Part shown: positions 7,382-35,944 of the stretch, piece after piece
Position numbering within the stretch: the first letter of the stretch is position 1
Layout: every line of letters starts with the position of its first letter
Assembly (NCBI GenBank): GCA_947561395.2
Contig: OX387187.1
Coordinates: 19,263,829-19,327,828 of the forward strand
Direction of reading: 5' to 3'
Origin: Buxus sempervirens
Lineage: Eukaryota; Streptophyta; Magnoliopsida; Buxales; Buxaceae
DNA length: 64,000 bases
The notes under the pieces: model-generated
Told to the model about the DNA's origin: nothing
What the model saw: the letters and a program-made list of their open reading frames with translations, nothing else
Database searches by the model: none
Position numbers and translations under genes: made by a program

Positions 7382-7522
7382 ATCCGGCATCTCAGGCCGG
7401 ATACACTAGGGATTTAATGTATCCGGTATATGATACCGGATACACTAAAGGCTCCTTGTATCCGGCACTTGAGACCGGATACGAAGGAAAGCACTTGTAT
7501 TCGGCCTGAGTTGCCGGATACA
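7382..7522 (-). repeat. CCGG palindrome array in the reversed LTR
   Basis: Four imperfect palindromes, each about 22-26 bp with a GTATCCGG arm and a CCGGATAC arm around a short variable centre, are spaced by about 10-20 bp. They sit between the LTR 5' end and its TATA box, as in the other Tat-type LTRs here. Confidence 0.7.
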
Positions 7523-15860: not shown

Positions 15861-16003
15861 GTATCCGGATACTCAATCCGGATACAAGTACTTCTTCATG
15901 TATCCGGAATGATTATCCGGATATATGTGAGCCTTAATGTATCCGGTACCATGTACCGGATACCTTAAGGCCCTTTGTTATCCGGTCTGATATACCGGAT
16001 ACC
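15861..16003 (+). repeat. CCGG palindrome array in the 5' LTR
   Basis: Four units follow one another: GTATCCGGATACTCAATCCG (continuing GATAC), GTATCCGGAATGATTATCCG (continuing GATA), GTATCCGGTACCATGTACCG (continuing GATAC) and TTATCCGGTCTGATATACCG (continuing GATAC). The spacing is about 12-20 bp. The array ends about 155 bp upstream of the TATA box. A copy is at 36614-36756 in the 3' LTR. Confidence 0.85.
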
Positions 16004-16158
16004 TTAAGTTTGCTCAAAATTAGGGTTTTCCGAGAGCTTTTCACTTTTACCATCATGTCCCTCATTAAATGAGGGGAAATCACGGAAATAACCTTAGGGT
16101 TTAGGTTGGAGGGGTTCTAGACATTAATTTGTGTCTACCAATGACCTTAGCCCTTGCC

Positions 16159-16166
16159 TATAAATA
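16159..16166 (+). promoter_or_regulatory. LTR TATA box
   Basis: TATAAATA sits in TTGCCTATAAATAGGAGCC. The same block appears in every Tat-type LTR in the window: near 11890, 53507-53514, and reversed at 7217-7224 and near 15740. It is the likely core promoter for the genomic transcript. Confidence 0.7.
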
Positions 16167-18045
16167 GGAGCCTCCTCCTTGAGCAAATGGCACACAACTC
16201 TTGTTTTGAATTCTCGCAAAGAAGAACTCCAAGAGAAGAAGGAAACCGCTGTGGAATCGCCTCCAGCACTCAGGTAAGCCTCAACTTTTCTTTTTATTTT
16301 CTGTCTTTACATTCCTAGATCTAGATCTCTTCTTCTACCTTTCTGTAGTGTAAAGCCTTGTTTGCATGTGTGGAAATCCTTCCCCGGCTCAAAGTATCTC
16401 AAGACTCCCCTAGCCGTAAAACGTGAAGGCGGATCTAGGAGAAACGAGACTGGGGATTGACCCTAGTGCTAGAACCTATGTAGCATAAGGCCTTTTGGAT
16501 TGATTGTAAACCGTTCCATATTCAAAGTACCCTTGATTATCTTAAAGAGAACAGAGGGAAACGATAATGGAACGGAACCCTAGGCTATGCTAGAACCTAT
16601 TTTATTGAATCTATATGCATGTGTATGGATCTTGCTTGGTTTTTTCACTTTTGCACACATATCACTATTTTGGCGGGATAGGCTCATATTTGGGGTTTAT
16701 TGCATTTATTGTGATAAATCTCAAATAAATGGCCTCAATCAATTCTGGAATGCCTTTCGGATGATTTTGAAGTATTTGTGTTCATCTTACACGAATTTCA
16801 TTTTTTATCAATTTTCGGATTTGGTTTTTACTCAAAAATGGCTTAGCTTGACAGCAACTGTACCCTTACTTCGGACTCCGTAACTTCATCATCCGAATGA
16901 ATTTTGGGGCGATTCCAGAACCATGGGAAAGGTGAGGCTGTCTAGTTTATGTCCACCAAATTTCATGAATTTCTATCTAGCCGATTTTTGACACTTCTCT
17001 GTCGAAGTTGAGTGGACAGTTCAGGTTCAAATACAGAACTTGTCACTTCGACGGACCGCCATGTGTTTGTTTTAAGTCCGATTCGAGTGATTTTTATTTC
17101 TGAGTACTCCTTTTTGAGTCTATTTTCAAATCCAGTTGGTTTCATAATTTTTGGATTCCATTTGAATTATTGGTAGCCGATTTACTCAGAACTGCTCATT
17201 TGCATTTTTCTGGGTAAATCTGTGATCTTCGGGGCCTGTTCGGGAGACCACCCAAGGCACACCCGAAGGGATTTTTGTATGAGGCTAGTTTCTGTTGAAA
17301 GATGGCCATACAGACTTCAATCACACCAAATTTCACGGATTTCTATGTAGTGGATTTTTCTAGACAAGTTTCCAAAGTTGCCCACTTACCACTTTTAAAA
17401 ATCCCCAACAGCAACTTCAAAGGAGCATAACTCCTAGATTTTTCATCGGAATGAAGTGAAATTTTGCATGAGACTCTTGTTTACCCTAATCTTTCAAATG
17501 GATTTGGTTTGGGTCAATTTAGAATCGGATTTGAATGATTTCAAGGCAAATGGTATACTTTTTACCAAATTTTCCGAATTTGATTTAACTTGGTTTTGAG
17601 CAATTTGTGCTTTGATTTCCATCTTTTGAGATATTCCAGAAATGATATTGACATAAGAGAGGATCTAAAATCCATTTAGATCTTCATGTGAAAATATCAT
17701 ACATTGTTCTTTTTTCAAGGCTTTTTCATGATTTTTAGCAAGCTTCTTATTTTCTTTTTAGCATGAACATACACTTGGCAACCACTTCGTGTGGATGAAT
17801 GGGGGTGCCTAACACCTTCCCCCGTTCATAATCTAATCCCCTTACCCATCTCTGGATTTGATTTTCAAGTAGGGTTATTTTTACCCTAGAATTTGTCTTT
17901 TGGCTATTTTTGCCTACTTTTGAATCTTTGGTGTCCATTCTCACCCCAAAATCATGAATGGTGGCGACTCTCCCAATTTTTGCGTTGAGCCCGTGTGCTG
18001 ACGGAGGGACGATCACTCCGGTGATTTTTTCCCATGTCTCACAAC

Positions 18046-18063
18046 TGGCGACTCTGCTGGGGA
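18046..18063 (+). promoter_or_regulatory. tRNA primer binding site of the Tat element
   Basis: TGGCGACTCTGCTGGGGA starts two bases after the 5' LTR. It would pair with a tRNA 3' end reading TCCCCAGCAGAGTCGCCA. Tat-lineage elements are reported to use tRNA-Arg. Confidence 0.8.
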
Positions 18064-19558
18064 CTTGTGGATTTAAGCCTTTTTTGTGTATATTCATGCT
18101 TTTTAATTATTTTTGAATGCTTGCTACTTTGTTTAATTCATTTGTATATATTCTTGTAATTCAAATCAGATTGGGATGCTTTTGAATTTTATATGAATCA
18201 AGTCAGGTATGTTTTGTTTGATGTTGCCTAAAGGTTGATTTAGGAAAAGCCTATCTTGAAGCATGATTTGGTTGTATTTGGTGGTAACATGCTCTAATTT
18301 GAATTTTGAATACCATGGTTTGAATATGAGAATTAGTAGCATGAAATCTAGGAGTTCAGAATTTTTGGGTATTCAAACATGATTCCTATAAAGCATGCTT
18401 TTTTGTGCTTAAAAATTTTTGTTATGCCATGCCTTTGATTTGGGGTATAGGGGGATTCAATTTGAGCATGAAAACCAAGAGCATGAAATCTGGAATTTTA
18501 GTGCACATTGTGGATTTTTTAGTATGTTCACCAATATACCATGTCAAGTAGTTGCTAAACTTTTAGGCATTAATTTGGGGTATAAAGGATGCACTTTTGG
18601 GCATGAAAATTCTGGGAATTTTAGTGCATATTTATGGAGATTCTAAGCATATTTTACCTCATTGAAACACTTTTGAACCATGCCAAGTAAGTGCTAAAAT
18701 TTTAGGCTTCAATTTGGGGTAAATGGTGCACTTTGAGCATGAAAAAGAGCATGAAAATCTGGGATTTTAGGGAATGCTTTTGGGTTTCAAGCATGCTTCC
18801 ATGGTTTAATTGTTATTTGTACAAATAACATGTTTTGTATACCACTTTTTGGGCATGTAATATTTTTTGTGCATATTTAGTTGTTTTGGTGCTTGCTTGC
18901 TTGTATTTAGCTTCATTATTTTTGTCATATGTACCTTGGCTTGAAATTGAATGCATGGCTACGAAAAAGAGTGGCAAGGGGCTGGGACGTTGTGAATGTT
19001 ACCACAATTTAAAATTGCACTTGAGCACTTAAAACAATTTGCACAGCCTACCCATTACCTATTATGAAGTTGAACCATGAATGTGTGTAGCTTGGCGCAC
19101 CGAGGTCGTGACTTCGGAAAGCGAAAGTGAAAACATTTACCTTAGAATTTGGGTCAATGATGTGATGACAATGGGATCTGTGATTCGATTCCGGGCATCA
19201 CTAGACTTGAGTTCTAAGTTGCCAATTAAGCCAAAACCCAAAAAACCATACGCTTGAAGGTGGAGAAACACGTTTTCAGCTAAAAGCACACAATTGCGTT
19301 TGGGGAATTGGGTGTAAATGTGGGAAGGCCGTTTGCATGTTTTACAGGCCAAGGTATAATGTGCATACCATATTGAATGAAGGTAATACAAGGTGGCAAG
19401 GTAAAGCCATGTTCTTTTCCTAAATTTGGGGAATTTTGCAAGTATGATGTCCAAGCCCAATTTGGGGCAAGTTTTGAAGGTCAAATTAAGGTGAACATCA
19501 ATTGGGAATGAAAAAAAACTAATCGGGTGAAAAAATGAGTCAAAAAAAGCCATTTCGG

Positions 19559-19703
19559 CAATAACCGGTAACTCAGGCCGGTTAATAACACTTATATTCA
19601 TATCCGGTATGTATTTCCGGATACAAAGGCATATGCGCGTATCCGGTTAGGGTAACCGGATACCATAAGGCATATCCTTATCCGGTATACTATACCGGAT
19701 ACG
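19559..19703. repeat. CCGG palindrome array in the leader
   Basis: Four units include TAACCGGTAACTCAGGCCGG, TATCCGGTATGTATTTCCGG, GTATCCGGTTAGGGTAACCG and TTATCCGGTATACTATACCG, most followed by GATAC. The arms match the LTR array but the centres differ. A weak TATA-like AATATAAG lies on the minus strand near 19595. Confidence 0.75.
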
Positions 19704-19998
19704 TTCAAAAAATGCACAAATTGGCTGTTCAGCCCAAATTTTCAGAATAAAATGCCTAAAACACTGTGGATAATCCCTAGGCACCCCGAAAAGAACATAA
19801 GAAATGTTCCCAAAAATACAAAGAAAAAAATATAAAAAAAGAAAAACAAAAAAGAATAAAATAAAATATTCTTTCAGGATTTAACCTAAGTTTGAAAATC
19901 AAAGAGGAAACCAAGGTGTTATATTTTTGGACACCAACTCAACTCAAACATGTGTCAATCAAACTATGGAACTTGAAAACTGAGAAAATTCAGCAAAT

Positions 19999-21285
19999 TT
20001 GAAGAAGGAAAAAAAAACCTTTGGTTGGTTATTTTTGTCAATCAAATCAAAAAAAAAAATGAAAACCTTGGTTGGTTATTTTTATCAATCAAATACAAAA
20101 AAAATCAAAAAATTGGGACCCTTGGAAGCCCTAGAATATTCCATGAAAACCTTGGTTGGTTATTTTTATCAATCAAATATAAAAAAAATCAAAAAATTGG
20201 GACCCTTGGAAGCCCTAGAATATTCCATGAAAACCTTGGTTGGTTATTTTTATCAATCAAACCAAAAAAAAAAAATCAAAAAATTGGGACCCTTGGAAGC
20301 CCTAGAATATTCCATGAAAACCTTGGTTGGTTATTTTTATCAATCAAATATAAAAAAAAATCAAAAAATTGGGACCCTTGGAAGCCCTAGAATATTCCAT
20401 GAAAACCTTGGTTGGTTATTTTTATCAATCAAATAAAAAAAATCAAAAAAATTGGGACCCTTGGAAGCCCTAGAATATTCCATGAAAACCTTGGTTGGTT
20501 ATTTTTATCAATCAAATAAAAAAAATCAAAAAAATTGGGACCCTTGGAAGCCCTAGAATATTCCATGAAAACCTTGGTTGGTTATTGTTGTCAATCAAAT
20601 CAAAAAAAAAATGAAAACCTTTGGTTGGTTATTTTTATCAATCAAATCAAAACATTTGTGGGATACTTGGATAGAGTAGTCCAAGACACCTTTGGTTGGT
20701 TTTTTTATCAATCAAATCAAAACATTTGTGGGATACTTGGATAGATTAGTCCAAGACACCTTTGGTTGATTATTTTTATCAATCAAATCAAAACATTTGT
20801 GGGATACTTGGAAGCCCTAGAATATTCCAAGACACCTTTGGTTGGTTATTTTTATCAATCAAATCAAAACATTTGTGGGATACTTGGATGGAGTAGTCCA
20901 AGACACCTTTGGTTGGTTATTTTTATCAATCAAATCAAAACATTTGTGGGATACTTGGATGGAGTAGTCCAAGACACCTTTGGTTGGTTATTTTTATCAA
21001 TCAAATCAAAACATTTGTGGGATACTTGGATAGAGTAGTCCAAGACACCTTTGGTTGGTTATTTTTATCAATCAAATCAAAACATTTGTGGGATACTTGG
21101 AAGCCCTAGAATATTCCAAGACACCTTTGGTTGGTTATTTTTATCAATCAAATCAAAAAAAAAAAAAAAAAGAAAAATTGGGACCCTTGGAAGCCCTAGA
21201 ATATTCCAACTCAAAGCAAAAAAAAACAAAAACAAAAAAAACAAAAACAAAAAAACAAAAACAAAAACAAAAAAATTTTTCTGGC
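19999..21285 (+). repeat. Two-type tandem repeat array in the Tat leader
   Basis: Type 1 (about 20030-20640) is a unit of roughly 85-90 bp with CCCTTGGAAGCCCTAGAATA, CCATGAAAACCTTGGTTGG and TTATTTTTATCAATCAAAT plus an A-rich run of variable length, in about six copies. Type 2 (about 20640-21150) is roughly 75 bp with AAACATTTGTGGGATACTTG, a GGATAGAGTAGTCCAAGACA phrase and the same TTGGTTGGTTATTTTTATC core, in about seven copies. Hybrid units carry the type 1 CCTAGAATATTCC in a type 2 frame. The 21150-21285 end is A-rich. Frames running through the array are artefacts of the repeat. Tandem arrays in untranslated regions are known in Tat elements. Confidence 0.9.
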
Positions 21286-21397
21286 TGGTGTTCACCTAAC
21301 CTACTGGTTTACATATATAGGGGTGTGACTCAAGTTAAATGGAAGCTAACATGTTCTATTCATTTTTTTTCATCAGGTATATTTACTTTCGACCCAG

Positions 21398-22846
21398 GTG
21401 CACTTATTTGCAGTCATTGCTCCCGTGACCAGATCCAAAGCAAGAGCCATGAATACTGAAGAGAACCAAGCCCAAGCTGCTGTCCCCACTCAGGACTTTA
21501 CTCAACTGCAGGAGCAAGTGGCCGGTCTGGCCAAAATGCTGGGGGACCTACTGGCGGCTCAAGCCCAGCAGGCCCAAGCCCAAAACCAGGCATCTACTTC
21601 CCATCAGGCACCACCACCGCAGGCCTACATTCCGCCTCCGGTTCAGCCCATGCCAGAGCCCATTTCTGAACCAGTCCCTGAACCCATTCTGATCAGGGAA
21701 AATACAGCTGAGTCTGAGAAAGAGCTGGAAAAAGAAAAGGCCCGAGATGAGATGGAAAAGAAAATGCTGCTCAGGATAGAGAGGATCCAAGCAGAGCTGA
21801 AGGAAGTGAAGGGGGGAGGCAGCCATGCAGGCACCACCTTCGAGGACCTGTGCATGTACCCGGACGTCTGTCTACCGGCTAAGTTCAGGTGCCCGGATTT
21901 TGACAAGTTTGATGGCACGGGCTGCCCATTAAGCCATCTGAAACTATACTGCGGGGCCCTGTGCCAGTTTGGCCGGGATAATGGCATACTGATCCAGCTT
22001 TTCCAGAGGAGTCTGACCGGGTCAGCCCTTCGGTGGTTCGCTACAGTGGACCATGGAAGGATCAGGAGGTGGAAGGACTTGGCTGATGCTTTCTTGGACC
22101 AATACAAGTTCAACTCTGAGATCGTGCTGGACCGGTACGACATGATGAGGATGACCAAGGGCAAAGATGAGCCGGTACGGCAGTACGCCAAGAGATGGAG
22201 AGAGGCCGCCTCCCAGGTCAGGCCACCTATGCAAGAGCCGGAGATGATCTCCACATTTATGGGCACACTGGGGCAGCCCTTTTACAACCATCTGGTGGGC
22301 CAGATCACCACCAACTTTGCAGCCCTGGTACAGGTAGCGGACCGGATCGAGGAAGGGGTCAGGTCAGGACGGCTGATAGACTACTCTACTCTTACTGGGC
22401 AGTCTGATTCCTCTGCCTCCATGGCCCAGAAGAAAGGGGCCGGGTTTAAAAAGACGGGGGCCCGAAAAGAAGGGGAGGTGAACCTGGTCCAGGCTCCTCC
22501 AGCCAAGAAGCCACTGCACGTCAACATCTCTGCACCCCAACAGGCCCAGCAGGCCCAGCAGTCGTACCAGACCCCGCTGAATGTCAACTTCCCTCCCTCT
22601 GTGCCAGCTAACACAAGGAGGACTTTTTCTAAGGAGGAGCGGGATGCCTGGTTCGCAGCAAGAAAGAACCGGGTTTTCACCCCTCTACCCATATCTCTTT
22701 CCCAACTATTGCCAACTTTGCTGAAGGGTGAATACCTGACTCTGAAGGAGCCTAACCCGAATGCCACCAGGGGGAGGAATTTTGACACATCAGTCACCTG
22801 TGATTTCCACATGGGTGCACCGGGGCATTCTACAGATACCTGCTAG
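21398..22846 (+). CDS. Gag region of the Tat element
   Basis: This frame of about 480 codons encodes the capsid-type protein that packages element RNA. It has a Gln/Ala/Pro-rich N-terminal part with an acidic-basic coiled segment (about residues 100-140). The retrotransposon gag core follows, with FRCPDFDKFDGTGCPLSHL, ALRWFATVDHGRIRRWKDL and YAKRWREAASQVRPPMQEPE (about 160-285). A basic linker comes next, and the frame ends in a His/Cys cluster of the CxFHMGxxGHxxxxC kind, as in Tat-lineage Gag. An internal ATG (MNTEENQ) near 21449 is an alternative start. It is a fossil part of the element and is fairly well kept. Confidence 0.85.
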   Translation: MHLFAVIAPVTRSKARAMNTEENQAQAAVPTQDFTQLQEQVAGLAKMLGDLLAAQAQQAQAQNQASTSHQAPPPQAYIPPPVQPMPEPISEPVPEPILIRENTAESEKELEKEKARDEMEKKMLLRIERIQAELKEVKGGGSHAGTTFEDLCMYPDVCLPAKFRCPDFDKFDGTGCPLSHLKLYCGALCQFGRDNGILIQLFQRSLTGSALRWFATVDHGRIRRWKDLADAFLDQYKFNSEIVLDRYDMMRMTKGKDEPVRQYAKRWREAASQVRPPMQEPEMISTFMGTLGQPFYNHLVGQITTNFAALVQVADRIEEGVRSGRLIDYSTLTGQSDSSASMAQKKGAGFKKTGARKEGEVNLVQAPPAKKPLHVNISAPQQAQQAQQSYQTPLNVNFPPSVPANTRRTFSKEERDAWFAARKNRVFTPLPISLSQLLPTLLKGEYLTLKEPNPNATRGRNFDTSVTCDFHMGAPGHSTDTC

Positions 22847-22849
22847 GTA

Positions 22850-25153
22850 TTGAAGCATGCGGTCCAGGACCTGTTGGACCAGAAGGCTTTGGTCTTTAAC
22901 ACTGCTGCACCCGCCCCGTCGGGGAATGATATTGGGCAGAATCCTCTGCCTTACCACAATGGGGCAGGCCCATCCAACTCCATCACGGCCATATCCACCA
23001 CCAGAAGGGCCTTTGACCCATCACAGCTCATAGCTCCCGTGGGGACCACGGTCCAGGTCCGATTTTTCCCAGAAGAGGAAGAAGAGGAGATCAACATGGT
23101 CTCCCAAAAAAATAATACAGCTGCTGAGGACATAAGTTCCTCTTTGAACCGGGTCTCATCTCTTATGACCCAGATGAATACTGCAAGGCCCGCATTGGTC
23201 TTCAATTGCAGTCCACCCACTTGTTCCCCATCCAAGCCGTCTAAGGCTCCACTGGTCATCAATCTTGACCCCACCACTGCTTCCATCACTTCTTCTGTCC
23301 CCACCAAATCCAAACTTCAACCCTTGGTTGTAAATGTGCAGCCAGCCCATACTATCCCTAAACCGGCCCATACATCCCGGTCCAAACTCCGGCCACTAGT
23401 GGTTGACATCCCTAAATTAGCCTATTCCGAGGCCGCTGTACCATGGAACTACAGCGAGGGAATCACGGCTATGGTTCCAATGGTCAGGGACCAGAACCAG
23501 GAGGAGGTGAACCTCATGACGAGGTCAGGGAAATGTGCAGGGGGTGAAGAGAAAGAAAAAGAGACAGAAGTAGAGAAAGAGAAAAAAGAGAATGAAGAAA
23601 AAAGAAAACAGAAGGGAAAAAATAAAGTGGGAGAGGACACCCCCCAGGGTGCAGAAAATGAGGCAGCAGACCTCATAAAAATAATAAAAAAGAGTGAATT
23701 CAATCTTGTGGATCAGCTAAACAAGGTCCCGGCCCAGATTTCAATACTGGGCCTTTTGCTGAATTCTGAAAAGCACAGGGATGCATTGTTAAGGGTGCTA
23801 CAGAGTGCACACGTATCCCAGACCATTGATCCGGACCAGCTTGGTAAAATGGTTGGTCAAATCTTGTCACATAATGTGATAAGTTTCTCAGAGGGTGAGA
23901 TCAGCCCAGGTGGGTGTTATCATGTGGACCCTTTGCACATCACTGTGCTTTGTAAGGGCTGCATGGTTGCACGGGTTTTAATTGACAATGGGTCAGCGTT
24001 AAACGTTTGCCCGTTAATCACTTTTACCAAGCTGGGTCTGGACCAGTCGAGGATCAAGCAAAATGGGCGGATAGTGAGGGCTTTCGATAGCTCCAAGACC
24101 CACTCCCTAGGGGAGATTGAACTGCCGGTCACAATTGGGCCGAATATCTTTAACATCACATTTGAGGTGATGGATATACCCGCAGCATTCAATCTACTCC
24201 TAGGAAGGCCGTGGATACATTCGGCTAGGGCAATACCATCCACGCTCCACCAAAGGGTGAAATATGTAAGAGGGCAAAGGGTGATAACAGTCCTAGCCGA
24301 AAACTTGGTGCCGCCCATCGTGTCACCTGATGTACCATTAATCAATGTGGACTTGACTGTCGACAAGATTGCATTCCACTTATTCCAATTTGAGGCGGTC
24401 AATTTCATACCTGGGGGGTGTGAGAAAAAGAAAGAAAAGGGGACCACTGCAGAAAGGATGGTCAAGAAAGTGATGGAGAAATACCACTTTCACCCAGGGA
24501 AAGGCCTGGGGATCAATCTGCAGGGGATGGTGGAGCCAATCACGGCTAAGAAACTGATCCCCAAGGTAGGGTTGGGCTTCAAGCCCAGGGGCTGGAGAAG
24601 AATGAAGTATGAAGAAGGGGAGAGCAGAAGCAAAGGAAAACTCCCACATCTGAGGGTGAACTTCCCAAAACCCGCTTATATAATCCAAATTTCTCCTCCT
24701 ATGGACCAATCAAAACCTCCCTACTACAATGTCAACCCATTTCAAAAGCCTCCTGTTTCGGCCCTCCAACCCTATAACCCATCTCCAATACTGGGAGCAG
24801 CAGATGGGCCTGGACCACAGCCCGAGCAGCAGGTGGACTTTTCTGAAGATGTTGGTGCATTCTTCGCTATGACTGAAGGCGAAAAGACAGGGGTAGACAT
24901 GGACCTGCCGTTTATTGACTGGGCCGCAGTAAAGATTCCAGAGGAGGTCACTTCTGGACTGAGCCCCGCAATAGAAAAGGGCAGTACCCACCCGGTGATG
25001 ATGGCATCGGATTCTGGGTTTGAAGAGCAGGCTTTCCCTATTTCCCCTGCTCCCCAAAATTTTGTACTGAACAATTGGGAGGAAACTCCCCTTACCTTTG
25101 AAGCAGCGTTAGTTCGGCAAACTGATGCGGCTTCCAAAAAAAAACTCCAATAG
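22850..25153 (+). CDS. Protease region of the Tat element, with a G-patch-like motif
   Basis: The frame has a long, low-complexity N-terminal linker containing a Glu/Lys-rich run (about residues 235-265). The aspartic protease domain follows, with VARVLIDNGSALNVCPL as the active-site region (about 375-390), then ELPVTIGPNIFNITFEVMD and FNLLLGRPWIH as the closing part. After it, YHFHPGKGLGINLQGM (about residue 545) resembles a G-patch. A Pro-rich tail runs into the next frame. The family processes Gag-Pol with this enzyme, and splicing of an intron near the pro/pol junction is known in some Tat relatives. Confidence 0.8.
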   Translation: MKHAVQDLLDQKALVFNTAAPAPSGNDIGQNPLPYHNGAGPSNSITAISTTRRAFDPSQLIAPVGTTVQVRFFPEEEEEEINMVSQKNNTAAEDISSSLNRVSSLMTQMNTARPALVFNCSPPTCSPSKPSKAPLVINLDPTTASITSSVPTKSKLQPLVVNVQPAHTIPKPAHTSRSKLRPLVVDIPKLAYSEAAVPWNYSEGITAMVPMVRDQNQEEVNLMTRSGKCAGGEEKEKETEVEKEKKENEEKRKQKGKNKVGEDTPQGAENEAADLIKIIKKSEFNLVDQLNKVPAQISILGLLLNSEKHRDALLRVLQSAHVSQTIDPDQLGKMVGQILSHNVISFSEGEISPGGCYHVDPLHITVLCKGCMVARVLIDNGSALNVCPLITFTKLGLDQSRIKQNGRIVRAFDSSKTHSLGEIELPVTIGPNIFNITFEVMDIPAAFNLLLGRPWIHSARAIPSTLHQRVKYVRGQRVITVLAENLVPPIVSPDVPLINVDLTVDKIAFHLFQFEAVNFIPGGCEKKKEKGTTAERMVKKVMEKYHFHPGKGLGINLQGMVEPITAKKLIPKVGLGFKPRGWRRMKYEEGESRSKGKLPHLRVNFPKPAYIIQISPPMDQSKPPYYNVNPFQKPPVSALQPYNPSPILGAADGPGPQPEQQVDFSEDVGAFFAMTEGEKTGVDMDLPFIDWAAVKIPEEVTSGLSPAIEKGSTHPVMMASDSGFEEQAFPISPAPQNFVLNNWEETPLTFEAALVRQTDAASKKKLQ

Positions 25154-28100
25154 TGGAATGCCATTTCCCTGAAGGTTCTAATGGGCCTTCGTCTTCAGGG
25201 GAATTATGTTTAGAAGGCCCACAAAAAACCCAAAAAGATTTTTCTATTTTTTCTAGAAAATTTAATTTTTTCAAAAAGGTCCAAACCACTTATGAACCAT
25301 ATAATCAGACCGAATTGGACCAGGTTGAATATGACTTCGACCTTGAGCTCGACTTTGATCTCATGGGGGTCGAAGAAGAGACCGAGGTCGAAGAAGAAGA
25401 CGTTCCAAAAGAAATTGAATACCAATTAGAACGTCATGAAAAGGGGGTCCAACCTAATATTGAGGAGACCATATCCATAAATCTTGGGACCAAAGAGGAC
25501 CCAAAAATTGTAAAAATCGGGTCATGCTTGTCTGATGTGCAGAAAAATGAAATGTCACAATTCTTGGCAGATTACAAGGATGTGTTTGCTTGGTCATATC
25601 GGGACATGCCGGGGTTGGACACTGACATGGTGGTGCACAAGTTGCCAATTTTGCCAGGGGTTAAGCCGATTAAGCAGAAGCTGAGAAGATTGAAACCTGA
25701 ATGGACCTTGAAGGTCAAGGACGAAGTGGTCAAACAGTTCCAAGCTGGATTTTTGGCAGTCTCTACATACCCAGAGTGGCTCGCAAACATAGTGCCGGTA
25801 CCAAAGAAGGACGGGAAGGTCCGAATGTGCGTGGATTATAGAGACTTGAACAGGGCAAGCCCAAAGGACGATTTTCCGCTTCCACACATCGACATTCTGG
25901 TCGATAATACTGCGGTACATAGCCTGTTTTCCTTCATGGATGGTTTCTCAGGGTATAATCAGATCAAGATGGCTAAGGAAGATCAAGAAAAAACAGCATT
26001 TATCACACCTTGGGGCACATTCCACTACACGGTCATGCCGTTTGGGCTTAAGAACGCTGGGGCAACATATCAGCGGGCCATGACTGCACTATTCCATGAC
26101 ATGATCCACAAGGAGATGGAGGTCTACGTGGACGATATGATTGCCAAATCGTGCAAAGAGGAGGACCACTTGATCAATTTGAAGAAAGTGTTTGATCGGC
26201 TCAGGAAGTACAGTCTACGGCTTAACCCGGCTAAATGCGTCTTTGGGGCTACATCAGGGAAGTTACTGGGGTTTATAGTGAGCCAAAGAGGAATTGAAAT
26301 TGACCCGGCTAAAGCCAAGGCCATAATTGAAATGCCAGCACCCAGAACCGAGAAGGAGGTCAGGGGCTTTCTTGGAAGGATTCAATACATAAGCCGGTTC
26401 ATAGCACAGCTCACTGCTATCTGTGAACCGATTTTCAAACTTCTAAGGAAGGATAACCCGACGGTCTGGAATGAGGACTGCCAGCAGGCATTTGACACAA
26501 TAAAGAGGTATTTGCTGAACCCACCTGTGCTAGTGCCACCAACTCCAGGAAGACCGCTGATCCTGTACTTGTCAGTGTTGGAAACATCGATGGGATGTGT
26601 CTTGGGGCAGCATGATGAGACTGGTAGAAAAGAAAGGGCAATTTATTATTTGAGTAAAAAATTCACAGAATATGAAGCCAAGTATTCATCATTGGAGAAG
26701 ACTTGTTGTGCTCTAGTGTGGGCCACTCAGAGGCTAAGGCACTATTTCCTTAGTCACTCCACACTATTGATATCCCGGATGGACCCGCTGAAGTATTTAT
26801 TTGAGAAACCGGCACTGACTGGCAGGACGGCTAAGTGGCAACTACTACTGTCCGAGTTTGACCTCACGTACATCACCCAGAAGGCGATCAAGGGTCAAGC
26901 CATAGCTGATCACTTGGCTGCACATCCTCTGCCAGAATATCAACCCTTGAAGACCAACTTCCCAGATGAGGCAATTCTGTACACTGAAGAGGAGGACAGT
27001 GAGAGTTCTTGGCAGATGTTCTTCGATGGGGCCGCCAATATGAATGGGAACGGAATAGGGGCAGTCTTGGTTAAACCAGATGGTTCACACATCCCGATTG
27101 CAGTAAAGCTGAGATTCCAGTGCACCAATAACATAGCAGAATATGAGGCATGCATAATTGGATTGCAAGCAGCCATGGATCATGGAGTAGAGGAACTTGA
27201 CGTATACGGGGATTCGAGTCTTATCATCTTCCAAACAACTGGTGAGTGGAAAACCAAGGATCACAAATTGATCCCCTATCACCAGTATTTGGAAGAAATA
27301 AGCACAAATTTCACTCGAATTTCCTTCAACTATATGCCAAGGGCCAAGAATCAGTTTGCGGATGCTCTAGCAACCTTGGCTTCAATGGTCAGCATACCAG
27401 AAGGAGTAGACATCAGACCACTGGAAATTGAGGTCCGTGATGAACCAGCTTACTGTCTCGTTCTAGAGGGAGCACCAGAAGAAGAAGCACCATGGTTTCA
27501 AGATATCAAAAATTTCTTGAACAGTCGGAGTCTACCAGAAAATGCCACTGCTACTGAGAAGAGGACAATACAGAGATTGGCTGGTCAATTTCTGCTAAGT
27601 GGTGGACATGTGTACAAGAGGTCACATAATGACATTCTGCTCAGATGTGTTGCCAAGGCTGAATCAGAAAGGCTGATCGAGACCGTACATGGAGGAGTCT
27701 GTGGGCCCCATATGAGTGGACACATGCTGGCTAAGAAGATCCAGAGGCTGGGATACTACTGGACGACCATGGAGCATGATTGCTGTATACATGTCAGGAG
27801 GTGCCATCAATGCCAAATCTATGCAGATAACAAGCATGCACCCCCAGGTGAGCTGCACAACATGACATCACCCTGGCCCTTCTCTATGTGGGGCATAGAT
27901 GTTATTGGCATGATCTCCCCTAAAGCATCGAACGGGCACAGATTTATCCTGGTGGCGATTGACTATTTCACTAAGTGGGTGGAAGCAGCTTCATATGCAA
28001 ATATCACAAGCAACCATGTTATTAAATTTGTGAAGCACAATATCATTTGTCGCTATGGACTGCCAAGTGCCATAGTATCAGACAATGCTTCAAATATTAA

Positions 28101-28740
28101 GAACAAGGACATGAAGAAAATGTGTGAGCAGTTTCAGATCACCCACCACAAGTCAGCTCCGTATAGGCCAAAGATGAATGGGGCAGTAGAAGCAGCAAAC
28201 AAGAACATAAAGAAAATCATTCAGAAGATGGTAGTGAGTTACAAAGATTGGCATGAAATGCTACCACTTGCTCTACATGCCTACAGAACCTCGATCCGGA
28301 CTTCAACTGGGGCAACCCCGTACTCCCTAGTCTATGGGATGGAAGCAGTCTTGCCCGTGGAAGTAGAGATCCCCTCACTCCGAGTGCTCATGGAAGCAGA
28401 ACTAGAAGAAGCCGAATGGGTCCAGTCGAGACATGATCAACTCAACCTGATAGAAGAAAAGCGGTTGAAAGCGCTTTGCCATGGACAGTTGTACCAGAAG
28501 AGAATGGCCCGGGCTTACAATAAGAAAGTGAGGCCCAGAACTTTCCAAGAAGGAAACTTAGTGCTAAAGAAAATTCTAACATTTTTGGAAGACCCTCGTG
28601 GTAAGTTCAAGCCCAATTGGGAAGGCCCATATGTCGTCAAGAAAGTCCTATCAAGGGGAGCACTCATCTTAGCAAAAATGGATGGGTCAGATTTTCCTGA
28701 GCCCATTAACTCTGATGCGGTAAAAAGGTATTTTCCTTGA
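25153..28740 (+). CDS. RT, RNase H, second RNase H and integrase region of the Tat element
   Basis: The frame of about 1,195 codons contains reverse transcriptase with PVPKKDGKVRMCVDYRDLN, the catalytic EVYVDDMIAKS and LGFIVSQRGIEIDPAKAKAI. The usual Ty3 RNase H follows, from LILYLSVLETSMGCVLGQ to KGQAIADHLA. An archaeal-type RNase H comes next, with WQMFFDGAANMNGNG, NIAEYEACIIGLQAA, DVYGDSSLII and NQFADALATLASM. The integrase has an HHCC zinc finger with RRCHQCQIYAD, a core with WGIDVIGMISP and AIVSDNASNIKN, and MNGAVEAANKNIKKI. The domain order RT-RH-aRH-INT is diagnostic of the Tat lineage. The frame ends with a short C-terminal LVLKKIL region. Confidence 0.93.
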   Translation: MECHFPEGSNGPSSSGELCLEGPQKTQKDFSIFSRKFNFFKKVQTTYEPYNQTELDQVEYDFDLELDFDLMGVEEETEVEEEDVPKEIEYQLERHEKGVQPNIEETISINLGTKEDPKIVKIGSCLSDVQKNEMSQFLADYKDVFAWSYRDMPGLDTDMVVHKLPILPGVKPIKQKLRRLKPEWTLKVKDEVVKQFQAGFLAVSTYPEWLANIVPVPKKDGKVRMCVDYRDLNRASPKDDFPLPHIDILVDNTAVHSLFSFMDGFSGYNQIKMAKEDQEKTAFITPWGTFHYTVMPFGLKNAGATYQRAMTALFHDMIHKEMEVYVDDMIAKSCKEEDHLINLKKVFDRLRKYSLRLNPAKCVFGATSGKLLGFIVSQRGIEIDPAKAKAIIEMPAPRTEKEVRGFLGRIQYISRFIAQLTAICEPIFKLLRKDNPTVWNEDCQQAFDTIKRYLLNPPVLVPPTPGRPLILYLSVLETSMGCVLGQHDETGRKERAIYYLSKKFTEYEAKYSSLEKTCCALVWATQRLRHYFLSHSTLLISRMDPLKYLFEKPALTGRTAKWQLLLSEFDLTYITQKAIKGQAIADHLAAHPLPEYQPLKTNFPDEAILYTEEEDSESSWQMFFDGAANMNGNGIGAVLVKPDGSHIPIAVKLRFQCTNNIAEYEACIIGLQAAMDHGVEELDVYGDSSLIIFQTTGEWKTKDHKLIPYHQYLEEISTNFTRISFNYMPRAKNQFADALATLASMVSIPEGVDIRPLEIEVRDEPAYCLVLEGAPEEEAPWFQDIKNFLNSRSLPENATATEKRTIQRLAGQFLLSGGHVYKRSHNDILLRCVAKAESERLIETVHGGVCGPHMSGHMLAKKIQRLGYYWTTMEHDCCIHVRRCHQCQIYADNKHAPPGELHNMTSPWPFSMWGIDVIGMISPKASNGHRFILVAIDYFTKWVEAASYANITSNHVIKFVKHNIICRYGLPSAIVSDNASNIKNKDMKKMCEQFQITHHKSAPYRPKMNGAVEAANKNIKKIIQKMVVSYKDWHEMLPLALHAYRTSIRTSTGATPYSLVYGMEAVLPVEVEIPSLRVLMEAELEEAEWVQSRHDQLNLIEEKRLKALCHGQLYQKRMARAYNKKVRPRTFQEGNLVLKKILTFLEDPRGKFKPNWEGPYVVKKVLSRGALILAKMDGSDFPEPINSDAVKRYFP

Positions 28741-29683: not shown

Positions 29684-31460
29684 CTAATCTCCTAGCCGCT
29701 CCTCAAGCTCCCGAATCCGAGCTGCCTGAGCTGCAATGACTCCTGAAGGCCCCTCTGCAGCGGGATCACTCAAGAAGGAAATGACCTCATCTGAAAGGGC
29801 CTGCCTGATCCGCATACTCCTGAGGCTGGCCAAAGTATCCTGGTACTTCTGCCGGATCATACGGACCTCAAAGCAACGGGCCTGCCTCTGCTCCTCCAGC
29901 TTCTCTTCCGCGGCAATACGGCGTGAGGTCTGCTCCTCAAGCTGCCTCTCCAGATAAACACTCTGTATCCTGAGCTCCTGGGCCTCCCGTACCCATATCT
30001 GCTGAAGCCGCTTATGAGAAGCCCGCTCAGACTCTAGAATGTCCTCATAGGTGGGAGCCAAGACTACAGGAGGATCTTCGGGTACTGGGGCCTGAGTCTG
30101 TATCTGTTCCTTGATCCAGAAGAGATAATCCTTCACATGGGTTTCCGAGAAGACTGGACCATGCATAAAGCGGACATAAGACCACTGCTTCATCAACCAG
30201 GCATTCAGCTTCATAGAAAGGGGCCCAAGACGATCCTCATATCCACATGGGATGATAATCCCCTGGGTCGCTCGGAACTGACGAAGGACCCGCAGAGGAA
30301 GATACAGCACTGCATGCTTCAGGCCCGCCAGAATCAAAAAGTTGCGGTCTCGGAAGCTAATCACTGTCTCCGCATTAGGTTGATAAGTACCAGGCCATCT
30401 GACCTGGTCATCCTGAAGCGAGCCCAAGAAAGTGAACCAGCCCTGTTTGCCCCCTGGAATATCGGGGCACCCCCTGTTGCTCATCAAGAGAGGGACTTTC
30501 AGACTCGGGAAGAAGTGTCGATTGATCTCTTCAATCTGGCTCAAATGATCAAGTAGCCAAAGCTGCAAAGAAAGGGAGATATGTCAGCACAAATAAAAAA
30601 AAAAAAAAAAAAAGAAAGCAAGCAAAAAAGGCAAAAAGAAAGCCAAAAGGCAAGAAAAAAAGAAAAAAAAACTTGTTTACCTGCAGGATCTGGGCACATG
30701 CTAAGAAGCGTTTCGACTTTCTGTTGTAGCAGTCAGTCAAGGCCTGATATATCCCAGCTAAGATCATAGGGGCCAACCTCTCCCGCTCCCTAACCTGGCA
30801 TATCACAGAAATCAAGGCCAAGTCCACCTCGTCATCCTCCCGTGGGAAAAGCAACTGGTTGACCACTATCAGGGTCAACGCATTGAATCGGGCCTCCTTA
30901 TCTTCTCCCCTCAAAAGCTTCTCAGTCAAAAAAGCCTTAGATAGGGTCAAAAGGGTGTCAGAATCCCCCAAGTCCTTCTTCCCTATGCCCAAAAAAGTAG
31001 AAGCTTCCTTCTTGTAACTGGGCCTAAGAGGTGGATTCACCACCTTCTCATCAAACCTCAGGCCCAGGATGGTTTCCACCTCTTCAATGGTGGGGGTCAT
31101 CTCATGGGTCCCAAAACGGAACAAGTTGAGATCAGGAACCCAATGACCAATCATGGCCTCTATAATCTCCCACTTGAAGGGAACCTTGGGAATGAGCAGG
31201 GTATGGCCTAGGTTGGTAGTACCCCATCTCCTCTCCTCATCTAGGGTCATAGAGTTAACCCACCTTGTGTAAAAGGAATCCACAGGGTTGTACCTAGTAA
31301 GATTTGGGGGTTTTGATCTAAAAGGCTGTTTTGCAGGGGAGGCAGTGTGGACAGACAATAATGGGGCAGAAGATGATCCGGATTCCATTGGATTTGACGG
31401 GAGCAAGCTAGAACTCAAGAGGAGGAAGAAAAAGGCGAAAAAGGGGGTTTCTAAACTCAA
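29684..31460 (-). CDS. Antisense gene I of the Tat element: DUF7745/plant-mobile-domain-like protein
   Basis: Two long minus-strand frames (30681-31460 and 29684-30562) are separated by a 118-base stretch with a CTGCAG/GTAAAC donor, a T-rich tract and a TTTGCAG acceptor, in phase. The first has FRFGTHEMTPTIEEVETILG and, at its end, SKRFLACAQILQ. The second opens LWLLDHL and has FLILAGLKHAVLYLPLRVLR. These match the DUF7745 family of plant retroelement-associated proteins, related to the plant mobile domain (my recognition, not a search). The C-terminal 110 residues form a Glu/Arg-rich coiled coil. Its own TATA box and palindromes lie upstream. The function is unknown. Antisense extra genes are known in Tat relatives such as Grande and Retand. 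No break is obvious. Confidence 0.75.
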
Positions 31461-31500
31461 AAACTCGTAAAAAAATGCTCAAATCCCGAGGCAGGTTGCA

Positions 31501-31508
31501 TTTATAGC
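31501..31508 (-). promoter_or_regulatory. TATA box of antisense gene I
   Basis: On the minus strand GCTATAAATG lies about 45 bases upstream of the antisense gene I ATG at 31460. The palindrome array starts about 12 bases further upstream, so the layout repeats that of the LTR promoter in compact form. Confidence 0.6.
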
Positions 31509-31519
31509 ATCTTTTAACA

Positions 31520-31660
31520 TATCCGGTAACTCAGTCCGGATACAAAGGCTTTGGTAATGTCCGGATAAGTATACCGGATACAGAGGATTCAATGAATATC
31601 CGGTATAACATACCGGATACAAAGACCAATAAATGTATCCGGTATGTCAGACCGGATACC
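31520..31660 (-). repeat. CCGG palindrome array upstream of antisense gene I
   Basis: Four units include ATATCCGGTAACTCAGTCCG, GTCCGGATAAGTATACCGG, ATATCCGGTATAACATACCG and GTATCCGGTATGTCAGACCG, each followed by GATAC or close to it. The pattern and spacing match the LTR array. Confidence 0.8.
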
Positions 31661-31935
31661 GAGAAAAAATGCAAAAAAGGAGCTAAGGATGAAAAAATCC
31701 GAATTTTTTACCTGTTTTACCTGCTTACATGTCATAATTGCATAAAATTGAGAACAAAAGATGTGCAAAACATGATGGAATGAATAAAAAGTTTTTCATA
31801 TATATCTGGAAGTTTTTGTACAGGGATGATAAAAATACATGAAAATGAAAAAAAAATAATCCTAATCTACTCCTATGCAGGATCATCCCCGCGTCCTCGG
31901 CCGCGTCCACCTCTACGGCGTCTCCCCCAAAGTGC

Positions 31936-34553
31936 TCAGCCTCTAGAGTATGCAAGGATCCGCTCGGCTGCATGGCGAGGATGCCGACCTACCACCTGCT
32001 GAAGATGATACTCCAAGCAATAATCCTCGAGATCTGGGGGAGGAGCAGGAGTAGAATCTGGGGAAGAACCCTCAGGCTCAGCAGCAACCGGCCCAACTGG
32101 GCCCTCATCCAAAGCATCCTCTGCTCCCGCAACTCCAGAAGGCCCAGCATCAGCAGCAGAGGGGACAGGATCAGAAGTAGCTGAGTCCACAGAAAAAAGA
32201 AAAATCAGAAGACTCAAATATAAGGAAGAATAAAAGAGGAGAATTAAAAGAAGATCATACCAGGAATGTCTGCAGAAGGAGCAGGAGGATCCGGCTCGTC
32301 AAGACCAGCCGCTGGGGCATCCTCGGGATCAGCAGCCCGAGCCGGAGATGGGTCAGGAATCAGGAAATCATGCTCAAAGAAGGTGTCCTGATCAGGGACC
32401 GGGCCCTGCACAAGTCAAACAAGCATATCAGAATAGCAGAAACAGGAAAATGAAAGAAAAGAAAATATAAGAAGACCAGATACCTGTCTAGCCTGGAGCT
32501 CAGCAACCAAGGCCTCCAGCTCCCTGATCCGGGCATCCCGCTGGGCCACGACCGCATCGTGCTCCGCGATCATATCATCGATCGCGGCCCGCTGGCTCTC
32601 GAACCGGTCCCTGATGGTGTTCAGCTCGTGTACCTGTCAACAAAAACCAAAGAGGATCAAAAATGCATACAGAAAGGCAGATAAAAACAGGAAGAGTACA
32701 AGGCTTACAGTGTCCTCATGGATCCGGATACGAATCCCGCCGATCTCAGTCACCCCGGCACGAGTGGGTCGATCCATCAAGCATCCGATAGATACCCTCT
32801 GGAACCACTCATCATAATCTCCGGCTACTGTGAGCCCCTCTGCATCCAGGAAGTGATCGAACTGATCAACATCAAAGCCAGGAAGGAGTGTGTCGGGACC
32901 CACAGGAGGAGGAGGGACGGGGATGCGAAGTGCGCCAGTGTGCTGGAAGTACAGGCGCTCTCCCAAGTACATCACCCTACCAAGCCTCCCAAGGAAGCAC
33001 TGGTAGGGCTGACGTCGTCGATCTCTATCGAAGGCGTCCTGTACCGCCATCTCACGGGCCACTCCGACGTCCACGTCATCAAATCGGGACAGGAGGAGCT
33101 GCAAAAAAGGAAAAATAATCAGGTACAGTCAAGATACAGGAAAAGAAATAAAAAGGAAAAAGGATAAAGGGTTTACATCAGGTCGGCGGGCACGGTCCAA
33201 GTGCACCCGGGCAGTGCGAGGCTGGCTCCTATCAGCATCTCGGACCTGGGCCGACCATCGCAGGGCCACAGGGAAATCCGCAACCTCAGGAACCGGAGAG
33301 GGGCGAAAGAAGGTCATATAGGTGTACATGAACACCTGGCAAAAGGAAAATCATTCAAGAAAAGATAAAGCCTAATGAATTAAGCCAGACAGATGAATGC
33401 AATACCTGTAGAATCTGCCAGAAGAACCGGCTGCTAACTCCATCGCCTCTCGAGGATGCCAGACCTCGAACTGCACGGCACAACCCGGCCAAGATAGTCC
33501 CATAAATGAGCCGACCCCATGCTAGCTGGCGGGTCTGATGGAGATCTCTCAAAGCGTCCAGGAAAAGTGAGCTGACGCCGGTCGTATCCTCCGGGAAAAA
33601 GCAGCTCCCAAGCATCAGTAGGAATACGTGTCGGAAGATAGGAACAAAAGCAGCATCATCCACAGCCACAGTCCTGTGTCTCCCCTCAAAATGTCGAGCC
33701 AGACTCTCCCGCAGCCAGCTAATGGAGAGCCGGCCGCTCCGCCCATCCCAAGCAGTAGGTGGCAGGGCCTGATATCCCAGGAGAAGTCCCATATCCTCCG
33801 CAGAAGGCCGCTCCAAGACGATGGTCCGCCCCGTCAGAGGGATGCCAGTAATCATCACAAAATCGGAGGGGCGGATCCCCAGCTCCACGTCCGGCAGGTG
33901 GAACGACTGTGTCTCTGGAAAGTATCTCTCCACCATGGCAAAGATGAGTGGACGGTCGGCTCTGAATGATGGAATGCTGAGGAAGTGATCCAGGTGGCAC
34001 CTCCCAAACTCCCGCCTGAGCGCTAGAGAAAGTGACTATGCCAACTCACTGAATCTGCCCCAGCTACCGCGCAGATGAGAAGAATGGTACGGAAGCGGCA
34101 CATCAGCCCTGATGCACATAGAGGGGTGGCTATCCAAGCCATGGAGGAGCTCTGTATCATGCACAGAAGCCCTCAACTCCTCAGAGACCCCTGCCAGAGC
34201 TACAGCAACCCCCTCTGGAGCCGTATCTCTGGCTCTGCCTCGGCCTCTACCACGGCCTCTCTCGCCCTCAGGGGCCTGATCCTGAACCCGGCCTCTGCCT
34301 CGGCCTCGACCACGAGCGGATGCAACCATGGGCTAAATTTCAAAGGAACAGCGTAAAGGTTTGTGTAGAAAGGAGAATAAAAAAAAGAAAAGAGAGAAAG
34401 GGCTTGAACGTCTACCTCGGCAGAGCTCTCTCGAGAGTCGCCTAATGGCTCAGATAGGGTGGCACTAGAACTAGTCTCAATCCGAGCTCGAGAAGAAGAG
34501 GGCCGGTCGGCCGGGTCAACCTCCTCACGAACACGAGAACGACTCCTAGCCAT
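31936..34553 (-). CDS. Antisense gene II of the Tat element: plant mobile domain protein, several exons
   Basis: About seven minus-strand coding segments are separated by short T/C-rich gaps with GT...AG borders. In order they give a basic Ser/Arg-rich start (about 34417-34553), an Arg-Gly repeat region near 34230-34330 and the plant mobile domain (about 33400-34020, with YFPETQSFHLPDVELGI and FVMITGIPLTGR). Then come FMYTYMTFFRPSPVPEVADF (about 33330), DRDRRRQPYQCFLGRLG (about 33020), a coiled coil with AEHDAVVAQRDARIRELEAL (about 32540) and an acidic Pro/Ala-rich tail to 31936. Plant mobile domain proteins in the host (MAIN, MAIL1) affect silencing and development. This copy's role is unknown. 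It appears to have about one break. It is a different protein from antisense gene I. Confidence 0.6.
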
Positions 34554-35865
34554 CTACACAGGGAAGTGTTTTATGAATTTCCAAGTTGGCTTTGCTTACA
34601 GTTCACATCCAATTTTACAGGATTATTCTTCAAAAATTATCGTGAATTATGGAATACTTCTGTTTCTAATTCTGAAACATTTTCTAAAGGAGTCCTACAG
34701 TGCTTAATATTTCCTAAATATTTTGTGATTTCAGGATATGAGAATTGCAAGCAGAGTTACGGAAATTCAAAGCCAGAAGTGGCAAACCAGGTCAGAAAGT
34801 CAAGATGAATGAAAAATTTTTTAACCGGAGAAAATGGCACCAGTAGACCATCTGAAGGTATCAAATAATGCCGGTCTAAAGTGAAGTTACGAGCAGTCAA
34901 GGAATCCAAGGTTTAACACAACCAAGCATGTGCTTGTTTACCTGGCTCAAAGCTAGCAAAGAAAATTGAGGAGCATCACAAGTATCCTAGGCAAATGGGC
35001 AGCCAATAAAGAAGTTGACAGGATAAATTGGAAAAAAGAACAGCATGGCATTTGCAATTCCAAAGTAGTCTGAGGCATGGGAAGTCAGAATTCTTCACCA
35101 ATCAAAATCAGGAAAATCCCAACATGAAATCAGCAATTCAACATGAGGAAAACATTATCCCAAAAAGCATGCAATCAGCAGTTCTATCAGCAATCAACCC
35201 AAGGTCTTGAAAACATCCAATAAATAATGCAGCAAATTACAGAAAACAGCCTATCCAAAATTAGAGCATGGCAATAGCATGGAACAGCAATTACAAATTC
35301 CGGCTCGAAATCAGCAATGAATGGAAACAAATTTGCCATTTTCGGCAAGACCAGTGGGGTGATGGGCAATGGTTTACCAGTGGACTAAATTCCACCAACA
35401 GTCAAAGTAAAAGATCATGTGGAATTCGGCAATCAAGATAAACAGTAAATTTTTCGTGGGAGGCTGCCATGCCATAGTTACAGTTTGATTAAAGAAGAAA
35501 GAAAAAAAAAACCTGTCTGCAGGTAGAGGAGTCGGATTGCTCGACTGGAACTCAGGTGGAACAGTCGAATCACCAGGAAGCTAGGGCTCGGCCACCACAG
35601 GATATGAGCAAGATGTATTCGATCCTTGCCGAGGAATCGCCGGAGCTTAAACTGTCGAGCAAAATCGAGCAAAACCCGAAAATGGAGAGCTAGGGCTTGG
35701 TCGCGCAACCAGGTTGGGTCGCCGGCAGCAATAGGGAGCACCGGAGTTGCCGGAGGTCGCCGGAGAATGATGAAGAGCAGTCGGGTGAAGAAGAAGAGGA
35801 GGATAACCGGTCTGAGTAATCGGAGCAAGAAGAAAAGAAGAGGAAAAGTCGCGGTCGCGCGCGAC
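34554..35865 (-). other. Probable untranslated leader and intron of antisense gene II
   Basis: On the minus strand a TGTGTAG acceptor directly precedes the ATG at 34553. A CTGCAGACAG/GTTTTTT donor-like site lies near 35514. The stretch 35515-35865 would then be a first, non-coding exon below a TATA box. No conserved protein is seen. Open frames there are Arg- or Phe-rich and unsupported. Confidence 0.35.
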
Positions 35866-35873
35866 TTATAAAA
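35866..35873 (-). promoter_or_regulatory. TATA box of antisense gene II
   Basis: TTTTATAAG on the minus strand lies directly below the palindrome pair at 35881-35944 and is followed by a GC-rich GTCGCGCGCGACC stretch, itself palindromic. The layout parallels that of antisense gene I. Confidence 0.5.
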
Positions 35874-35880
35874 CCTGCGG

Positions 35881-35944
35881 GATCCGGATACTCAGGCCGG
35901 ATACCCGCAGACCCTTTATGATCCGGATATACTTACCGGATACC
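35881..35944 (-). repeat. CCGG palindrome pair upstream of antisense gene II
   Basis: Two units, GATCCGGATACTCAGGCCGG(ATAC) and GATCCGGATATACTTACCGG(ATAC), have the same arms as the LTR array. It is the shortest array of the element. Confidence 0.75.

Follow-up and report, generated by a model that had tools for sequence, protein, structure and literature searches.

Palindrome arrays and antisense genes of the retroelement

The window analyzed here is a 64,000-nucleotide stretch of the Buxus sempervirens genome (assembly GCA_947561395.2, contig OX387187.1, forward-strand positions 19,263,829 to 19,327,828), and the subject of this report is a short palindrome repeated in arrays at several noncoding sites of a 23-kb long terminal repeat (LTR) retroelement at positions 15771-38796 of the window. 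The element was bounded at both ends by the target-site duplication GCTGG. Its 5′ LTR (15771..18043, plus strand) was 2273 bp long with TG...CA ends, and differed from the 3′ LTR (36524..38796, plus strand) by 8 substitutions over 2273 bp with zero gaps. A putative primer-binding site, TGGCGACTCTGCTGGGGAC, followed at 18046..18064 (plus strand), and exact copies of it were found 1235 times on the plus and 1226 times on the minus strand of the 677 Mb genome searched (2,461 in total, control 0). Downstream on the same strand lay gag (21449..22846; PF03732, E 8e-12), a reading frame between gag and pol with a G-patch domain (23096..25153; PF01585, E 4.7e-06), and a pol frame (25363..28740) encoding reverse transcriptase (RT), RNase H, a second RNase H and integrase (PF00078, PF17917/PF17919, PF13456, and PF00665). 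Within pol, PF17917/PF17919 at residues 369-499 was followed by PF13456 at residues 554-672, placing a second RNase H after the RT-linked one. The element was also of great length, with long LTRs, a long internal region and an integrase without a chromodomain match; no chromodomain was found among the Pfam matches of the element's reading frames. Judged by domain order and size, the element is a Tat/Ogre-like member of Ty3/Gypsy. Primer-binding sites for tRNA-Arg are a further trait of that group.

The array unit of this element, hereafter type A, was a 25-bp palindrome, GTATCCGG-N9-CCGGATAC (8+9+8), mostly repeated at a 39-bp period. Four units at this period lay in the 5′ LTR (15861..16002, plus strand), upstream of the TATA box TATAAATA at 16159, and four in the 3′ LTR (36614..36755, plus strand); the CCGG cores of the LTR array fell on a 13-bp lattice. 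The leader array (19561..19702, plus strand) began with a divergent unit, AACCGG..CCGGTT (19561-19585), followed by three GTATCCGG-type units. On the minus strand, four units (31519..31659) formed the promoter array of antisense gene I (aI), 12 bp from the aI TATA box (31501..31506, minus strand), and two units (35880..35943) formed that of antisense gene II (aII), 9 bp upstream of a TATAAG at 35870-35865. The centre was 9 bp long in 23 of 23 window pairs with at most one mismatch per arm, and its sequence was variable. A first-pass annotation of this stretch had reported arrays at the LTR, the leader and both antisense promoters, three of them upstream of a TATA box. All were recovered, with TATA boxes after the LTR, aI and aII arrays. 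The same annotation had described one palindrome module of a single retroelement; the module is present there, but is not peculiar to one element, and the core common to the families is not CCGG but CCG-N11-CGG. Further window arrays occurred in other LTR copies, at 7380-7521, ~11620-11728, and 53222-53350. One of the arrays at 7380-7521 and 11620-11728 was on the minus strand, and the other was an old copy of a GTATCCGA..TCGGATAC variant, in which the change is symmetric in both arms.

Two reverse-running genes sat between pol and the 3′ LTR, and both encode plant-mobile-domain (PMD) proteins. The first, aI (29684..31388, minus strand), comprised two open exons separated by an apparent intron (~30682-30563), whose splice sites were placed by eye (AG|GTAAAC and TTTGCAG). 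The PF10536 score in aI was 52.5 bits, above the cut-off. Exon 1 (~31388-30683) encoded a PMD/DUF7745 domain, while exon 2 (~30562-29684) gave a weak DUF7745 match followed by a long charged stretch that, by eye from the sequence, looks like a coiled coil. Among 31 copies, exon 1 was open in 28, and pN/pS (the ratio of nonsynonymous to synonymous change) was 0.12 in exon 1 and the covered part of exon 2; aI is under purifying selection. The second gene, aII (31900..35870, minus strand; outer limits approximate), consisted of several exons, among them a PMD exon at ~33936-33355; its PF10536 matches (E 1.1e-11 and 1.7e-15; 44.9 and 57.5 bits) were also above the cut-off. It had an RGRGRGR-type N-terminus, and its frame in the window copy was broken by a TAG (residue 98 of the translated piece). 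The element Grande is said to carry an accessory gene with its own promoter.

Leaders were compared among 12 pulled elements. Ten had arrays, and the two without were L132, which resembles an LTR, and L134, which may end short of the array. Arrays of the same type as in the window were present in 8 of 8 other family-A leaders. In the window leader, a TATAAG on the antisense strand (19596-19591) lay between the first two units and adjoined a 154-amino acid antisense frame (19137-19601). None of the eight other family-A leaders had this TATAAG at that place, and it is therefore not counted as a conserved promoter; the leader array was dropped as a candidate antisense promoter for the 154-amino acid frame.

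Spacing, families and conservation of the palindrome

Genome-wide, exact type A arms separated by N0-20 were found 20,522 times, with none for the backward control. At other gaps there were 36 matches for N0-8 and 238 for N10-30, most of those listed being N22 pairs that bridge adjoining units, so the type A gap is essentially always 9. In the window, CCG-N11-CGG occurred at 34 sites and CCG-N24-CGG, which arises from the array lattice, at 22; no other spacing between 0 and 25 exceeded 12. The genome-wide count against a control of zero, together with the N11 excess in the window, excludes chance. The same spacing stood out elsewhere: in 40 LTR pieces examined at gaps 3-25, N11 was found 125 times, gap 24 was found 50 times (a by-product of the family-A 13-bp lattice), and any other gap at most 13 times. 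Centre sequences were loose, with 27 distinct centres among 77 units of the family-A LTR pieces.

Two further palindromes emerged. Type B (GCCCGTA-N7-TACGGGC) was found 11,266 times genome-wide at exactly N7 (control 0), and its count summed over the 21 longer spacings N8-28 was 54 (control 26). Type C (AACCG-N11-CGGTT), counted at N11, was found 19,195 times (control 1,691), a figure to which the AACCGG..CCGGTT unit in the leaders of family A contributes. When A, B and C are superimposed by symmetry axis, all three read CCG-N11-CGG with different neighbours around the CCG (A, TATCCGG; B, G[C/A]CCGTA; C, AACCG). Array periods varied by family (39; 27-28; mixed 28/41), and N11 was constant.

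Elements were sampled by primer-binding site, taking the first 40 of 100 listed places minus 6 that belong to a 15.3-kb tandem series. An LTR promoter array of one of the three types was found in 32 of these 34 elements: 20 of the window type or a close variant, nine of type B, one with the B motif in a different LTR (L086), and two of type C. The two misses were the rearranged L068/L099 and L089. L086 combined its different LTR with the same primer-binding site and carried B palindromes directly before its TATA box, possibly a case of sharing or theft of the B address.

The array sequence switches jointly at LTR and antisense promoters between families. Within a B stretch (C10:7199000-7205370), type B was present in the array of aI (L114), in that of aII, which lies next to a PMD exon, and in that of the LTR (L122), and B was found at both LTR and leader in two more elements (L095/L133 and L096/L131). 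Type C occurred at an LTR (L121) and at the adjoining aI promoter (L112), ~1.5 kb apart. A-type units were present in all eight family-A leaders read.

The association between arrays and aI-like genes was examined at 20 DUF7745 promoters, hand-picked from 118 scored matches (5,751 candidates) to span reading-frame classes, after the CCG-N11-CGG rule had been noted; the resulting fractions are not a genome-wide rate. Upstream of these 20 genes, CCG-N11-CGG was found at 36 sites and any other gap from 3 to 24 at no more than 8. An array stood at the matching place in 12 (1 A, 5 B, and 6 C), and the 12 genes formed one protein class: ten had an RSKPPN[LVF]T[RK]Y N-terminus, and the other two, L114 and L116, with 25-28 readable residues, matched its continuation. 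None of the eight arrayless genes (L101-L108) had this N-terminus. They represent a second DUF7745 class, without arrays in the 800 bp upstream. Over ~70 residues, window aI was 67% identical to a B protein (L118) and 50-53% identical to C proteins (L109, L112, and L113), the B and C proteins having been compared over their first 25-75 residues. All six aI promoters of types A and B had a TATAAA after the array. The B and C promoters also had in common, downstream of their aI arrays, a ACGTCATT-type sequence (ACGTCATTnTGAC where fully read, with a variant in L113), seen in L109-L112, L114, L115, and L117-L120; we take this ACGTCA/TGAC-type sequence to resemble plant bZIP sites.

Divergence was measured in an LTR sample in which elements were chosen by primer-binding site regardless of arrays (17 copies plus the window, 18 LTRs). 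Deviation from the column majority was 12/1152 (1.0%) in arms and 122/4990 (2.4%) in flanks, compared with 82/755 (10.9%) in spacers and 89/648 (13.7%) in centres. The difference between arms and flanks had a Fisher p of 0.002, a guide value since the cells share ancestry. Methylated CpG positions are expected to decay fastest; CpG cells were changed in 1/324 cases in arms, 4/108 in flanks, and 13/36 in spacers. At the aI promoters, a set of the 30 best matches (the window's own place among them) plus the window as reference row, the 31 copies diverged by 0.40% in arms, 0.86-1.11% in flanks, 1.43% in centres, and 2.68% in spacers. Among nine B LTRs the values were 7.3% for arms, 11.7% upstream, 16.3% downstream, 24.6% for spacers, and 31.0% for centres. 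The arms are thus under constraint, while centres and spacers are loose. That arms are kept while centres differ had been read in the window as constraint beyond copying, and the comparison of family members bears this out: the arms changed slowest, centres and spacers fastest, and decay of the arms at the flank rate was not found.

Part of the centre excess has a particular source. In 6 of the 18 LTRs (L065, L076, L081, L085, L087, and L088) the first centre was ATTGAGTAT, the exact reverse complement of the window's ATACTCAAT, as if the palindrome inverts during copying.

A candidate element-encoded regulator and its alternatives

Fixed half-site spacing, a free centre, two-fold symmetry and sequence-specific arms together point to a dimeric DNA-binding protein. 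We infer protein binding, dimerisation, aI as the binder, and activation or anti-silencing in preference to repression. The reading that we favor, and hold to be somewhat better than even, is that the arrays are family-specific sites for a symmetric dimer whose regulator is element-encoded, most likely aI, in a VANC-like system of self-activation or anti-silencing. Two inverted CCG half-sites kept 11 bp apart would be contacted by the dimer, the bases adjoining each CCG would give family specificity, and the coiled-coil-like C-terminal half of aI could dimerise the PMD/DUF7745 protein. The best candidate is aI, because an antisense gene of this kind occurs with all three types, is under purifying selection, and has this coiled-coil-like half. 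It would simultaneously occupy its own promoter and that of aII, together with the LTR and the leader, so that all copies of its own family would be switched on, or kept from silencing, with sister families untouched. At the leader, where no TATA box recurs among copies, binding may help to open chromatin instead of starting transcription. Activation or anti-silencing is tentatively favored over repression because of the VANC precedent, and because an element would gain by escaping silencing. The first-pass annotation had envisaged one dimeric regulator, from the host or from the element, for sense and antisense transcription together. A constrained symmetric site common to both kinds of promoter supports that idea in part, and three palindromes, each at its own LTR and antisense promoters, tilt the source toward the element.

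Several observations weigh against an aI-based system. No DNA-binding fold was recognized in aI, where Pfam returned PMD/DUF7745 and one sub-threshold, chance-like match. A PDB sequence search gave no solved relative of aI exon 1, and an AlphaFold model of that exon alone had a mean pLDDT (model confidence) of 36.7 and was not used. Exon 2 had three stop changes among the copies. The cells of the divergence tables are not independent, owing to common ancestry, and the aI loci, being the best promoter matches, have their promoter divergence lowered relative to the rest of the gene; the comparison of arms with centres is unaffected by this choice. Three of the eight arrayless DUF7745 promoters held a single CCG-N11-CGG, and 6 of 6 C-type aI promoters lacked TATAA[AG] below the array, having a TTTTAAA-like stretch there. 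None of the 30 best PF10536 loci had an array within ~1.5 kb, so PMD as such is no predictor of arrays and was rejected in that role. Downstream of the L121 LTR comes a primer-binding site, so the C link may join neighbours that share an LTR. The types were also impure. By mechanical typing, one unit of another type was also present in 4 of the 35 pieces from LTRs and 3 of the 45 from aI that contained typed units, family-A leaders held one C-like AACCGG..CCGGTT unit (8 of 8) and the two B leaders held two each, and AACCGTA..TACGGTT-like sites lay ~0.9 kb from B arrays at several places.

An alternative that we consider unlikely, but worth keeping in view, is that a host transcription factor family reads CCG-N11-CGG with different flanks, and that each element family adopted one of its members. 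Plant LTRs commonly recruit host factors, no DNA-binding domain was recognized in the antisense proteins, and the ACGTCA/TGAC-type sequence in the B and C aI promoters could be read by a host bZIP protein. Set against this, three specificities coexist in one host, each matched, within its own family, between LTR and antisense promoters, and an element-carried regulator is more economical than three host factors. The sites are also very numerous, at 11,000-20,000 exact matches per type, and the arrayed promoters belong to one class of element protein (12/12 vs 0/8). Among plant factors, we are aware of none whose dimer site has the form CCG-N11-CGG.

It is quite unlikely, in our estimate, that the binder is another element protein, either aII or a gag or integrase product using the sites for a purpose other than transcription. 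An array of its own accompanies aII in A and B, and the RGRGRGR-type N-terminus of aII would suit such a role; a leader array without a TATA box recurring among copies also fits a non-promoter function, e.g., marking RNA or DNA. However, the family-C stretch, seen in one copy, leaves ~1.5 kb between the aI and LTR arrays and no space for aII, the window aII frame is interrupted, and the arrays precede TATA boxes and fall outside the transcripts predicted for aI and aII.

Folded RNA is a very improbable basis for the palindromes, whether as hairpins or as small-RNA sources, both of which had been proposed from the window. Perfect 8-bp stems with 9-nucleotide loops can be drawn, and tandem arrays could feed small-RNA production. 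Hairpins nevertheless need complementarity and not a fixed sequence, yet 89 distinct A units keep ~1.6-2.0 bits per position in the arms (1.0 bit at the outermost base; because CCG/CGG guided the choice of units, the values at these positions are inflated). Of the four array sites, three precede a TATA box and fall outside what is expected to be the 5′ part of the transcript, and the complementary arm retained in type C is 5 bp. Plain tandem-repeat copying, in which a functionless array arose once and spread to other sites, is hardly credible either: arrays at different sites of one element do have a common unit and often a common period, but copying would carry along the centres and spacers, which change fastest while arms change slowest, and periods differ between families while N11 does not. 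The last alternative of the first-pass annotation, CCGG methylation targets, is rejected because neither the B nor the C half-site requires CCGG.

Relation to known systems and further observations

The closest functional parallel to an aI-based system is found in the VANDAL MULEs of Arabidopsis, whose element-encoded VANC proteins recognize a short motif of their own family, with binding shown experimentally (PMC5735166). In both cases short tandem motifs are family-specific, noncoding and different between related families (PMC5735166, PMC10398659), and such a motif was indeed found here to be repeated in noncoding regions and to differ between related families. In VANDALs the element itself encodes the matching regulator, and the same is proposed here. 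VANDALs are DNA transposons, however, whereas gag, RT and integrase mark the present carrier as an LTR retroelement. VANC21 has as its motif one 9-base site, YAGTATTAY (PMC5735166), and the text of that paper contains no word beginning with "palindrom"; the present site is two-fold symmetric and dimer-like, with fixed spacing, and is repeated at the LTR, leader and antisense promoters. Binding has been demonstrated for VANC and is proposed for the Buxus arrays. VANC-type self-recognition also involves loss of DNA methylation and derepression of the family concerned.

PMD proteins encoded by Ty3/Gypsy elements have been described as PMD-A1 and PMD-A2 (PMC5418596, PMC7156037), and aI and aII, lying antisense within a Gypsy element, conform to that description. 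The available portions of those papers give no binding site or target for the Gypsy-encoded PMDs. Host PMD-C proteins (MAIN/MAIL1) act in silencing of transposable elements and have been linked to the promoter motif DOWN, which differs from the present arrays in lying in host gene promoters, its direct recognition being left open by the authors in the same portions (PMC5418596, PMC7156037). One survey of plant LTR elements found PMD to be the most frequent extra domain (PMC9289625). Retand elements likewise belong to the long Gypsy elements outside the chromoviruses and carry, between pol and the 3′ LTR, antisense genes for which a regulatory role has been suggested; their domain is TRP28 (PF04195) and not PMD/DUF7745, and the available text of the source does not mention palindrome arrays (PMC11963269). 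No TRP28 match was found in the scanned aI and aII pieces, which cover part of the aII exons, and the element accordingly differs from Retand in this respect. Motif-specific self-recognition is thus already known from VANDALs, as are additional PMD genes from Gypsy elements and antisense genes from Retand (PMC5735166, PMC5418596, PMC9289625, PMC11963269). In the open-licence literature searched, no prior report was found of palindromic arrays that recur at LTR, leader and antisense promoters alike, nor of arms that differ by family within a common frame.

Host relatives of the Gypsy-encoded PMD proteins control silencing, and the anatomy described here supplies a putative target site, a candidate protein and a testable code. 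If the favored reading is true, self-specific anti-silencing or self-activation would reach LTR retroelements, beyond DNA transposons, and the persistence of the antisense genes would have a reason. It would also explain how several giant families cohabit one genome without cross-activation. More tentatively, and with less than even confidence, retroelement PMD proteins may constitute a hitherto unrecognized class of dimeric regulators that bind specific DNA sequences by an evolvable code, in which the CCG-N11-CGG frame is fixed and its neighbours vary by family. Each giant Tat family would then have a private key that activates its sense and antisense promoters jointly and shields no copies but its own from silencing, and rival families within a genome would run parallel, non-crossing regulons of thousands of sites each.

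Searches of viral contigs found no encoded relative of aI; the palindrome had one exact match in each of eight contigs, which was taken as chance. Within the element, tandem repeats of 71 and ~84 bp (CCTTTGGTTGGTTATTTTTATCAATCAAAT) occupied window positions 20015-21205, between the leader array and gag. A solitary LTR of the same family lay at 53132-55394, with CCCTA on either side; it was 96% like the element LTRs in most ungapped stretches compared, and 70% in one stretch beginning before the array. At C1:8477724-8569677, seven primer-binding sites on one strand were spaced ~15.3 kb apart, forming a tandem array of a retroelement unit.

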